IMG/VR virus record: IMGVR_UViG_3300031963_001109
Span: 1 to 20,860 of that record
Direction: 5' to 3' (one strand)
DNA: 20,860 nt
Origin: a virus
The notes beneath the pieces are model-generated. The model searched no databases. It saw only the letters and a program-made list of their open reading frames with translations, and was not told the DNA's origin. The position numbers and the translations under genes are program-made. Of this stretch, positions 11,961-17,501 are shown one piece after another. Numbering within the stretch: the stretch's first letter is position 1; the number at the start of each line of letters is the position of its first letter.

Positions 11961-13076
11961 ATGCGGTTGCACTTGCTTGGCATTCCACACACGGTCACGA
12001 CGAAAGACTTTGCGCATTGCGCGTTTACGCAAAAGGTCTACAAGTTTTCGCGCATGATGGTGCCGTTGGGCTACGAGGTGCTTCACTACGGCGTCGAGGG
12101 CGCCGATTCTGGCGCGTCGGAAGATGTGGTCGTGATGAGTCAAGACGAGCATCAACGCTTGCTTGGGCATCCGTACAACCACGATAAGACCGCGTTCTAT
12201 GGCAACGATGCGCAAGCAGATTCGGATGTGTATCGACAATGGAACCTGTACGCACGCGACGAATTGAAGGAACGCGTACACGCTGGCGATTGCATCTTGC
12301 TTCCGTTCGGTCACGCGCATGCGCCAGCCATTCGTGACTTGCCCAATCTCAAAGCGGGTGCGTCAGCAGTTGAGTCGGGCATTGGGTACTTTGATACGCT
12401 CTTGCCGTGGCGCATCTACGAAAGCGAAGCCGTGCGGCACGGGTGCATGGCAAAGGAAGGACGGGCTGGCGTGCATACGCATAGCCCACGTTTGGAATTT
12501 GTCGTGCCGAATTCGTACGACGTCGATGAGTGGCCCGAGGGTCCGGGCGGGGACGCGGTGGTATTCTTGGGGCGGTTGACGGAAGGCAAGGGACTGCCGC
12601 TGATTCTGGAGCTTGCGCGTCTGCGTCCTGACGTCCCGTTCATCTTGGCGGGGCAAGGCGACCTTACCCAATTCGGAGACATTCCTACCAACGTTGAGTA
12701 TGTCGGGCCGCTCAACGCGGAACGGGCCGCGTATCTTGGCAACGCTCGGGCAATCATTGCTCCATCGCATTACGTCGAGCCGTTCTGCGGCACGGTCGTC
12801 GAGGCCGCGCTGTGCGGTACGCCAGCCATCACGTCGGCGTTTGGGGCGTTTACAGAAACGGTGGCGCAAGACCGCACGGGCTTCCGCTGTCAGACGGTGC
12901 GGCAATATCTAGATGCGATTGATGCCGTCGCGTCGCTGAATCGCAAGGACGTACGCGCACGCGCACGACGGTTGTATGGCATGCGCTCGGTGGGTCGGGC
13001 GTATGACGCGGCGTTTCGTGTGATTGAGGAACGAACAAAGGCGGGAGCGTTTCCGTTGACAGGTTGGGCATCTTGA
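11961..13076 (+). CDS. GT4-like glycosyltransferase
   Basis: The 371-residue protein is a clear GT-B glycosyltransferase. It has an N-terminal acceptor-side domain with FAHCAFTQKVYKFSRMM. The linker is followed by VVFLGRLTEGKGLPLILELA (residues 200-219) and FILAGQGDL (227-235). The hallmark donor-binding motif EPFCGTVVEAALCGTPAI (273-290) gives the E-x7-E pair E273/E281. Family members transfer a sugar from a nucleotide donor. The ribosome site GAGGT precedes ATG 11961. It lies between the tail-tip and lysis genes, so sugar transfer to tail or virion proteins, or to host surface glycans, is plausible but unproven. It is only distantly similar to the gene at the window start. Confidence 0.85.
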   Translation: MRLHLLGIPHTVTTKDFAHCAFTQKVYKFSRMMVPLGYEVLHYGVEGADSGASEDVVVMSQDEHQRLLGHPYNHDKTAFYGNDAQADSDVYRQWNLYARDELKERVHAGDCILLPFGHAHAPAIRDLPNLKAGASAVESGIGYFDTLLPWRIYESEAVRHGCMAKEGRAGVHTHSPRLEFVVPNSYDVDEWPEGPGGDAVVFLGRLTEGKGLPLILELARLRPDVPFILAGQGDLTQFGDIPTNVEYVGPLNAERAAYLGNARAIIAPSHYVEPFCGTVVEAALCGTPAITSAFGAFTETVAQDRTGFRCQTVRQYLDAIDAVASLNRKDVRARARRLYGMRSVGRAYDAAFRVIEERTKAGAFPLTGWAS

Positions 13077-15934: not shown

Positions 15935-16161
15935 GCGAGCGTGCGGTATGCCGTGATTGGTCGCCTATCCCGTGCGCCGAGCGGAAGGCGGCACGCGAGC
16001 GCGGCGACATCAATTACGTCTGGGGATTGGGGTGGGTATGGTGGAAGTCGAAGGACGTCACGCAACGGTGGGAGCGTTGCCCGTGGTGCGACGGCTTATT
16101 GCCCACGATGGAAGGGATTGTGAAGCACGGCATTCTTTACGGGTGGCCCGACCATGACTAG
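15931..16161 (+). CDS. Small Cys- and Trp-rich hypothetical protein
   Basis: I do not recognise a family. The 76-residue protein has four cysteines (C7, C15, C50, C53), with CPWC at 50-53, and an unusual Trp-rich centre (VWGLGWVWWKS, residues 30-40). A small zinc-binding fold is likely. It starts at ATG 15931, overlapping the metallophosphoesterase stop by four bases, and itself overlaps the next gene by eight bases. That makes it a coupled operon member. Confidence 0.58.
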   Translation: MSERAVCRDWSPIPCAERKAARERGDINYVWGLGWVWWKSKDVTQRWERCPWCDGLLPTMEGIVKHGILYGWPDHD

Positions 16162-16441
16162 ACGCAAGACGAATCCGTTTACAAATCGGAAGGCGACGGT
16201 CAGCGTGCATCGCAACGGATTGAGCATTGAGATATCCGACGTCGCGGCAACCGATAGCGGGGCGGTGGCAAAGGAACTACTTGACATGGTGCGCACGTTG
16301 ATTCAGGCGGGATACGAGGAGCTTATCGTTGACGCTGGCTCATTGCACGGTGGCGGCTTCGAAACGCCCGACGAAGATGACGGCGAAGATTTCGTCTTGC
16401 CCGTTGAAGCCAAGCGACGCCCAATGGGGTTCCGCGTGTAG
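16154..16441 (+). CDS. Hypothetical protein with acidic C-terminal region
   Basis: The family is not recognised. The 95-residue protein starts with a basic segment (MTRRKTNPFTNRKATVSV), followed by a strand and an amphipathic helix (AVAKELLDMVRTLIQAGYEE, about 37-56). It ends with an acidic stretch (TPDEDDGEDF) and a short basic tail. It is the last gene of the left operon. Its final base is also part of the 14-base repeat that begins the regulatory region at 16440. Confidence 0.58.
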   Translation: MTRRKTNPFTNRKATVSVHRNGLSIEISDVAATDSGAVAKELLDMVRTLIQAGYEELIVDAGSLHGGGFETPDEDDGEDFVLPVEAKRRPMGFRV

Positions 16442-16442
16442 C

Positions 16443-16469
16443 GTAAGTCGTTGGTAGGCAATAGCTTAC
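16443..16469. promoter_or_regulatory. Dyad operator-like site, copy 1
   Basis: The site is GTAAGTCGTTG (16443-16453), a five-base spacer, then CAATAGCTTAC (16459-16469). The right arm is the reverse complement of the left at 8 of 11 positions. A close relative with the same spacing occurs at 20774-20800, where 22 of 27 positions match. The right arm overlaps the -35 candidate of the promoter at 16465-16493, which suits a repressor or activator site. The binding protein is unknown. Confidence 0.6.
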
Positions 16470-16493
16470 ACCGTACGTAGCCGCGTGTAATAT
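16465..16493 (+). promoter_or_regulatory. Candidate sigma70-type promoter for the noncoding transcript
   Basis: CTTACA (16465-16470) and TAATAT (16488-16493) are separated by exactly 17 bases; each matches four of six consensus positions. Transcription would start near 16500, exactly where the first hairpin (TGCAATG/CATTGCA, 16500-16523) begins. The -35 box lies within the right arm of the dyad site. A TTGACT at 16493-16498 is also present but has no good -10 partner. Confidence 0.4.
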
Positions 16494-16540
16494 TGACTGT
16501 GCAATGTCGTCAGAAGCATTGCATCGTAGGAACAAGTGAT

Positions 16541-16608
16541 GGCCCCGCAAGTATCTCTTGGTGTTTCGGCACCCTTCTGACAAGAGAGAACGCGGGGCCG
16601 TTTCTTTT
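16541..16608 (+). terminator. Complex hairpin with T-run: terminator or RNA domain
   Basis: An outer stem GGCCCCGC (16541-16548) pairs with GCGGGGCC (16592-16599). A second stem TCTCTT (16554-16559) pairs with AAGAGA (16582-16587). A third, GGTG/CACC (16560-16563/16570-16573), closes a TTTCGG loop. A T-rich tail, GTTTCTTTT, follows the stem. It could terminate the upstream late operon, or a short RNA from 16500. The two internal helices with an eight-base one-sided bulge (16574-16581) are more elaborate than an ordinary terminator. Confidence 0.6.
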
Positions 16609-17113
16609 GGGGGTTGTCAACTCAACTTGTAAAGGTTCGGGCTTACTCTCGGTTTCCCGAACGTCATGTAATCCGATACGTGACGAGCAATCTTAACCGT
16701 GCTTGCGCCTCTTGATGAAAACAAATCCACGCTCTGTCTGCCTACAACGTGGTCGGTCGTTTTAAGAGTGCGCAGGGAGCAACACGGTGGCATCGCATCA
16801 CCGTTAGGTCACCCGTCGAGGGATTGCGTACGTGGACCCCCGTACCAACGCAGACGGCCCCAATGCGAGACTTCGGACTTAACTCTGCTTCACCCCGTTG
16901 CGTTGCGTGTCAACGACCGGGAATGGCCGGGGTCTGGTCACCAACTCAACCTATCGCTTCATGCTATACGTTAAGTGTTGCGAATCGTCGGTAAAGGTTT
17001 AGCGATACCGACAAATGACAACCACGTTTGCTATTCGCCGCGCTCCGCTATATCGTGTAGTCGCAACGTTCCCGCGCTCCGTGTCGGGGGATACAGAAAT
17101 CGCGGGACTTGCC

Positions 17114-17151
17114 AAGCCCGTCACTCTTGACCGAGTGGCGGGTTTGTTTTT
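17114..17151 (+). terminator. Intrinsic terminator
   Basis: A 13-bp stem pairs 17114-17126 with 17133-17145 and includes two G-T wobbles (17116/17143 and 17121/17138). It closes the six-base loop TTGACC and is followed by G and five Ts (17147-17151). This is a strong rho-independent terminator on the + strand. It ends the structured region about 100 bases before the right operon. Confidence 0.85.
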
Positions 17152-17202
17152 ACAAGTCTTTACAAGCCAACGGTTTACACGATACCTCACGGAGTATTTA
17201 CA
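17149..17202. repeat. Four TTTACA elements between terminator and right operon
   Basis: TTTACAAG occurs at 17149-17156 and 17159-17166 (ten-base spacing, one helical turn). TTTACA recurs at 17174-17179 and 17197-17202. The last serves as the -35 candidate of the right-operon promoter. The others may be regulator sites or alternative -35 boxes. Confidence 0.5.
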
Positions 17203-17225
17203 AACGGCGCGGGTTTTGATATTGT
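17197..17225 (+). promoter_or_regulatory. Promoter of the right operon
   Basis: TTTACA (17197-17202) and TATTGT (17220-17225) are separated by 17 bases; five and four positions respectively match the sigma70 consensus. The start would be near 17232, leaving a leader of about 20 bases with GGAG at 17243-17246, correctly placed before ATG 17253. Confidence 0.6.
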
Positions 17226-17252
17226 GTTGCTACCCCCTCACACGGAGAACCC

Positions 17253-17501
17253 ATGCAAGAGATTGAATGCCCGACCTGTGGGAAGCCAATGGAAGTCAGC
17301 GTCTACTATTCGCCGCCTGACCCGTCGGTTGGTCTATCGCACGATTACGAAGTCACGATTGTCGATGCCGAGTGCGACCATGAATTCACGGACAAGCAAC
17401 ACGAAGAAGTATTCAACGGCTTGTGGGACAGACAGCAAGAAGCGAACGCCGCCAACTACGAAGATGAGCCGCGCTACGCACGGGGCTACGATGACTTATA
17501 A
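17253..17501 (+). CDS. Small zinc-finger-like hypothetical protein
   Basis: The 82-residue protein begins MQEIECPTCGKPMEV with a CxxC pair (C6, C9). A third cysteine sits in DAECDHEF near residue 41, with His nearby, so a small zinc-binding fold is likely. The C-terminus is acidic and helical. This is the first gene of the right operon, with GGAG well placed before ATG 17253. It overlaps the next gene by 11 bases. No specific function is recognised. Confidence 0.68.
   Translation: MQEIECPTCGKPMEVSVYYSPPDPSVGLSHDYEVTIVDAECDHEFTDKQHEEVFNGLWDRQQEANAANYEDEPRYARGYDDL

Follow-up and report, generated by a model that had tools for sequence, protein, structure and literature searches.

What is encoded in the long gene-free interval of a viral record from IMG/VR is the question raised by this locus. 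The window analysed was the whole 20,860-base virus record IMGVR_UViG_3300031963_001109 (positions 1 to 20,860), whose + strand encodes connector, tail, lysis and exonuclease genes. A first-pass annotation, made from the sequence, had placed in it a single large ornate RNA of about 650 bases, ending in an intrinsic terminator and possibly related to GOLLD or ROOL. The gene-free interval held up, extending over 16442-17252 between two open reading frames (ORFs; 16154-16441 and 17253-17501), both conserved in relatives. The single RNA did not, as the interval contained three conserved elements that also occur apart:

16499-16609, + strand: element A, a leader RNA with two hairpins (covariation; z-score -4.1)
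16635-16934 (approximate ends), + strand: element B, a pseudoknotted RNA (26 sequences; 14 helices, 77 pairs, 45 of them with changes on both sides)
17062-17151 (approximate ends), + strand: element C, a small RNA (six distinct sequences in 19 loci; z-score -6.0; intrinsic terminator)

Element B very probably represents a new, independent RNA family of about 300 bases, non-coding, read from the + strand and multi-pseudoknotted, carried by a group of uncultured tailed phages. This assignment is based on covariation, strand bias, the lack of an Rfam match, homologs in 36 contigs and the evidence that the element is not coding. The description as a large ornate RNA of a new class is thus kept for the ~300-base element B, with covariation over 26 homologs, but not for the whole ~650 bases: A occurred without B (in the relative L015) or was separated from it by a gene, and C had its own promoter-like site and only six distinct sequences.

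Homologs of element B

The 95-amino-acid upstream ORF, used as bait, retrieved 31 loci from the viral_contigs collection. When the intergenic stretch was compared with these loci by BLASTN, three pieces (16497-16609, from 16638 onwards, and 17062-17151) were conserved apart from one another, with variable spacing. A pattern built from the 5' part of B found 34 contigs, all of them matched by the B profile; together with the L006 contig and a truncated copy in L026, they make up the 36 IMG/VR contigs carrying B besides the window. A second pattern returned 33 contigs, namely the same set minus two variants (B', see below) plus the L006 contig. A looser pattern added nine further loci (L069-L077), in which the remainder of B was missing by eye, and two more (L067, L068), with no B profile match, came from a 3' pattern. 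Within viral_contigs, the family looks closed at this sensitivity. Neither the B pattern nor the bait protein had a match in genome_contigs, and the phage collection gave none for 16440-17260 at E 1e-5. Among the open PubMed Central papers searched, none described such an RNA in this phage group, as judged by title and start of abstract.

B occupied one place per record in the 12 matching records among the 16 searched. Among the 31 bait loci, 23 had a full B, one a partial B, three were short fragments (L030, L031, L032) and four were without B. L030 was a 7.9-kilobase (kb) fragment in which neither B nor an initiator gene was seen; its near relative L029 carried B about 2.9 kb past the bait, beyond the reach of the L030 fragment.

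Covariation, structure and strand of element B

The alignment of B (A1) comprised 26 of the 28 distinct cores, the two B' variants (L021, L028) being left out, with pairwise identities between 0.55 and 1.00 (median 0.71). RNAalifold predicted 59 pairs, with compensatory changes in 31, and a scan of every pair of columns added long-range helices beyond its reach. In the resulting structure, which has 14 helices and 77 pairs, 97.8% of 1998 cells were paired, compared to 82.9% in shuffled alignments. Changes on both sides of a pair affected 45 pairs and 287 cells (28.7 pairs and 83.9 cells in shuffles; kinship among the sequences inflates the cell counts), and on each of five measures all 500 shuffles fell short of the observed value. 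When the pairing partners were slid as a control, only 9-18 pairs and 22-49 cells showed such changes. At least one both-side change was present in 13 of the 14 helices, and the helices recurred in relatives. The main components are as follows, all on the + strand:

16635-16641/16656-16662 (16635-16662): hairpin P1, from the covariation alignment
16650-16654 with 16695-16699: P14, a contact of the P1 loop, paired in 26 of 26 sequences, one pair with both-side changes
16663-16670/16677-16684 (16663-16684): hairpin P2, both-side changes in 7 of 8 pairs
16672-16676 with 16873-16877: P13, a contact of the P2 loop, 4 of 5 pairs
16702-16776: the P4-P5-P6 arm, 5 of 6, 5 of 5 and 2 of 5 pairs respectively (P4, 16702-16707/16771-16776; P5, 16711-16715/16762-16766; P6 inside)
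16753-16761/16912-16920 (16753-16920): long-range helix P7, 3 of 9 pairs
16785-16789/16799-16803 (16785-16868 with P9): hairpin P8, 2 of 5 pairs
16793-16798 with 16863-16868: P9, a contact of the P8 loop, 5 of 6 pairs
16813-16817/16853-16857 (16813-16857): P10, which encloses hairpin P11
16836-16840 with 16929-16933 (16836-16933): P12, a contact between the P11 loop and the 3' end, 3 of 5 pairs

The interrupted helix at 16702-16776, singled out in the first-pass annotation, is therefore supported by covariation in P4, P5 and P6. Five contacts (P7, P9, P12, P13 and P14) link loops or distant strands, and could form either within one molecule or between molecules. The P11 stem had at least 4 base pairs in all 26 sequences, with the window lineage fitting two alternative 5-base-pair stems. 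A fourth P3 pair (column 64 with 178) was discarded in favour of P14. The two B' variants (L021:7526-7832 and L028:4540-4846) had the 5' part in common with B and a different 3' part, and in both of them the place of P7 was paired with other letters. An HNH-like ORF directly followed B' in L021.

G-U pairs outnumbered A-C pairs by 110 to 11 in B (counted on a 73-pair version of the structure), from which it follows that the RNA is the + strand, in agreement with the wobble bias noticed earlier; in element A the same counts were 21 and 0. A coding origin of B was rejected, as each of the six reading frames was open in at most 4 of the 26 homologs, and 103 of the 126 runs of insertions or deletions were 1 or 2 bases long.

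Several observations weigh against this picture of B. The sequences that gave the structure also served for counting it, and in percentage paired this gives it an advantage over the slid versions; P3 showed no both-side change in the 26-sequence alignment. The folding energy of B was ordinary (z-score -0.37, with 40 of 100 shuffles as good; -0.69 on the - strand) and was rejected as evidence for the element. In single-sequence folding, helices beyond chance were borne out for A (z-score -4.1) and C (-6.0) but not for B, and over 16440-17160 the - strand scored better than the + strand (-4.5 and -2.8 respectively; 20 shuffles each). Since the minimum energy of B is unexceptional, helices picked by eye could not have established it; covariation does.

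Comparison with known RNA classes

The proposed kinship with GOLLD or ROOL found no support. Neither the window nor five homolog loci had a match to any Rfam family at gathering score. Permissive searches gave only weak matches to MS2, CrfA and mir-33 over 16400-17300 (E ≤ 10) and three weak matches over four homolog loci (E ≤ 3), all far below gathering scores. GOLLD, ROOL, OLE and HEARO had no match in the window and the five loci at gathering score, nor in the permissive scans. Within the loosely defined kind of 'ornate RNAs of mobile elements', B is classed as a new RNA family.

In the excerpted text of PMC12286853, GOLLD, ROOL and OLE are homo-oligomers whose function is poorly understood. 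By that excerpt, B resembles ROOL, an RNA of phages and prophages, in being a phage RNA with a complex pseudoknotted structure and no known partner protein, but differs from it in length (about 300 versus 659 nucleotides), in the lack of an Rfam match and in being rarely near a tRNA gene. B is like GOLLD a phage-borne ornate RNA, and B and B' likewise show constant and variable regions. However, GOLLD, as far as the excerpt describes it, often exceeds 800 nucleotides and has its conserved region at the 3' end, whereas the part common to B and B' is the 5' one, and here too no Rfam match was obtained.

Genomic context and exchange with replication proteins

The genes beside B varied, and included a cytosine methylase, an N6/N4 methylase, DUF5843-like, PDDEXK-like and HNH-like ORFs, a PolB-type exonuclease and ArdC (the DUF5843, PDDEXK and HNH matches were below Pfam cut-offs). 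In L022 and L023, B lay on the opposite strand (L022:6284-6577, - strand), the 3' ends of B and the bait ORF meeting there. Given these changing neighbours and the opposite strand, B is independent of the genes around it. In the contexts read, it was located between ORFs and not inside a gene.

Element A preceded B by at most 22 bases in 18 of the 36 contigs, as located by profile, and one gene separated them in seven more (two by a weak partial match). The A profile had no match in the remaining 11, and by eye similar hairpins were seen upstream of B in L012, L029, L039 and L065. The region downstream of A in relatives is a cassette region, where close phages exchange methylases, HNH-like or PDDEXK-like ORFs, an initiator, ArdC and B.

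At this slot, L016 and L019 had the order A, ORF, dcm where L017 and L018 had A, B, dcm. Similarly, L015 had A, a homologous ORF, an HNH-like ORF and a nuclease-like ORF where L013, L024 and L027 had A, B and a nuclease-like ORF. The ORF in the place of B matched phrog_9474 (replication initiation protein; E 2.4e-18 in L016 and 1.7e-20 in L015). It was present in 3 of 36 records (L030 included), exactly L015, L016 and L019, and DnaB_C was present in 1 of 35 records (L030 left out, as for all Pfam families), exactly L025, the fourth record without B. The B profile had no match in the full contigs of these four records. Overall, an initiator or DnaB was encoded by all four records without B and by none of the 31 records with B. 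DNA_pol_A, D5_N and HTH_36 were absent from all 35 records, and AAA_25 matched only the L025 helicase. The proteins searched from the window and the L004 record included none recognisable as a polymerase, helicase, primase or initiator; the protein-family searches covered chosen ORFs rather than every small one. A more distant initiator relative was also found in L086, where the 8.4-kb stretch around it contained neither A nor B. On a tree of the bait ORF and the exonuclease, the four records without B corresponded to four changes, and three independent pairs on well-supported branches all pointed in the same direction.

Because all four relatives without B carry an initiator or DnaB, and three of them have the initiator in the B slot behind A, B may serve the start of replication in place of a protein. 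This is the leading, unproven mechanism, and it is advanced tentatively. The promoter before A would probably drive transcription of B, either directly or with one gene in between; B would fold into a compact body held by P7, P9, P12, P13 and P14; and it would serve, whether in cis or in trans, to start the replication of phage DNA in lineages without a recognised initiator or replicative helicase. That B is a knotted RNA replication initiator, perhaps self-assembling, which was swapped with such proteins several times and partly at the same slot, is possible, if doubtful, on these genomic comparisons.

A number of points weigh against a replication role. With three independent one-way pairs, significance is out of reach (sign test, p = 0.25). 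A single clade of L016 and L019 was not rejected (approximately unbiased test, p = 0.185), and the two may reflect one event. The A profile match in L016 and L019 was weak and partial (E 0.002-0.004), and L025 had no A match, hence the slot is not the same there. The 31 records with B were obtained partly through B itself (20 via the bait, 11 via B patterns), and most records are fragments, only 11 of the 31 being at least 30 kb long. The slot is hypervariable, with methylases and nucleases, and the exchange of initiator and B may be incidental. Moreover, no conserved origin-like sequence followed B, and neither a GC-skew change nor an AT-rich stretch was detected at B, although the one-way genes of the window mask such a signal.

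By description, the nearest precedent for a replication role of B is ARRPOF, an RNA whose name ties it to plasmid replication and which forms a ring-like homodimer, according to the excerpt of PMC12641628; it is a plasmid RNA, whereas B is borne by phages, and it is not a shown relative. The replication hypothesis is modelled on another RNA, without any relationship to B being claimed. The ColE1-type RNA II primer starts replication without an initiator protein. B differs from it in being more knotted and in having no conserved origin sequence after it.

Alternative roles of element B

The alternatives overlap with one another and with a replication role (an oligomer could also serve replication), and their odds need not sum to one. 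B could possibly be an RNA-only homo-oligomer in the style of GOLLD, ROOL or OLE, whose loop contacts would form at least partly between molecules. The five covarying loop or long-range contacts are consistent with this, and the excerpt of PMC12286853 reports a ROOL contact, detected first through covariation, that turned out to be intermolecular; the B contacts nevertheless fit a single molecule equally well, no Rfam relationship was found, and at 659 nucleotides the ROOL molecule of that study is about twice as long as B. The position of tRNA genes bears on the same reading. GOLLD and ROOL are often found near tRNA islands. A tRNA-Gln lies beside B in L040 and L046, but a tRNA gene was present in only these 2 of 35 loci scanned, and the window had none (ARAGORN, tRNA and tmRNA). 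The two tRNA-Gln(TTG) genes (L040:1372-1444 and L046:388-458 (-)) were located about 120 and 77 bases downstream of B, respectively. In L029 and L065, a tRNA T-arm-like stretch, GGTTCGATTCC, stood just upstream of B, where neither ARAGORN nor Rfam reported a tRNA.

B could also possibly be a cis element of the 3' or 5' untranslated region of its mRNA, acting on the stability, termination or translation of its neighbours. There is little space for a promoter of its own where B follows A within 22 bases; B started a few bases after a stop codon in L005-L009, L014 and L021, and an ORF started 17 bases after B in L034. However, no neighbouring gene was conserved on either side, B was on the opposite strand in L022 and L023, promoter-like hexamers were seen by eye between B and dcm in L012, L017 and L018, and so many invariant long-range contacts would, in our judgement, be unusual for a simple control element.

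B is unlikely to be accessory cargo, for instance an RNA against host defence, in a variable region given over to counter-defence. DNA methylases (cytosine and N6/N4) and nuclease-like proteins do occur beside it, as does an ArdC-type anti-restriction protein in L065, but B was steadier than a cargo, as the full copies in 23 and the partial copy in one of the 31 bait loci indicate, and all four records without it have a replication protein.

A ribozyme or intron-like mobile element, such as a group I-like self-splicing RNA, is quite improbable. The compact pseudoknotted core of B, the changes of position and strand and the HNH ORF after B' in L021 would suit such an element; on the other hand, group I and II intron models of Rfam gave no match even at E ≤ 10 over the interval, B lay between genes at one place per record, and reverse transcriptase (PF00078) was found in 0 of 35 records, with positives in 3 of 14 control genomes. 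A retron or group II intron RNA was rejected on the same PF00078 result. Finally, a guide RNA of a TnpB-, IscB- or Cas-like nuclease is very improbable despite the HNH-like or PDDEXK-like ORFs beside B in some contigs, as no Rfam guide-RNA family matched in the scans of the window and homolog loci and PF07282 (Cas12f1/TnpB-type; positive in 6 of 14 control genomes) was found in 0 of 35 records, IscB-type proteins not having been searched for.

Elements A and C and flanking genes

Element A (44 loci) is a further structured RNA that seems not to have been described; an 8-base-pair covarying contact joins the loop of its first hairpin to the second hairpin (16509-16516 with 16574-16581). Its alignment (A2) consisted of the 15 fuller sequences from 22 rows of distinct A matches, in which the 30 pairs were formed in 99.8% of cells and 17 pairs had both-side changes (0 of 500 shuffles). 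As A directly precedes a protein gene in L014, L015 and L021, it may be a leader or attenuator. The promoter proposed before its first hairpin was missed by the consensus scan; -35- and -10-like hexamers at a conserved position were nonetheless recognised by eye in 16 distinct upstream sequences. Element C likewise has a promoter-like site, recognised by eye in the six distinct C loci and not reported by the promoter scan. The terminator that had been assigned to the end of a ~650-base RNA exists and belongs to C; with one terminator-type site in the stretch and a shuffle mean of 1.2, the count is not above chance. An identity of C with CrfA was dismissed, the match (14.3 bits against a gathering score of 38; E 6.8) being taken as chance. 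The remaining features, all on the + strand, are:

16154-16441: upstream ORF of 95 amino acids, the bait, with 31 relatives in viral_contigs and no Pfam or PHROG family
16466-16493: promoter-like site before A (TTACAC, 16 bases, TAATAT)
17028-17056: promoter-like site before C (TTGCTA, 17 bases, TATCGT)
17113-17151: intrinsic terminator of C, from the terminator scan
17253-17501: downstream ORF of 82 amino acids, with a weak PHROG match of unknown function

Elsewhere in the window, a glycosyltransferase-like gene (11961-13076; phrog_3408, E 3e-48) lay between the tail and lysis genes.

Significance

To our knowledge, few natural RNAs of the size of B have so many covarying long-range contacts. 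Each such RNA class is a new fold, and the known ones have turned out to be ribozymes, scaffolds or assemblies made of RNA only. The length of B puts it within reach of chemical probing and cryo-electron microscopy. If a replication role were shown, B would be categorically new, and if its exchange with initiation proteins were causal, these phages would provide a clean case of an RNA doing the job of a protein in DNA replication. Element B makes the question of whether an RNA can stand in for a protein in replication directly testable.
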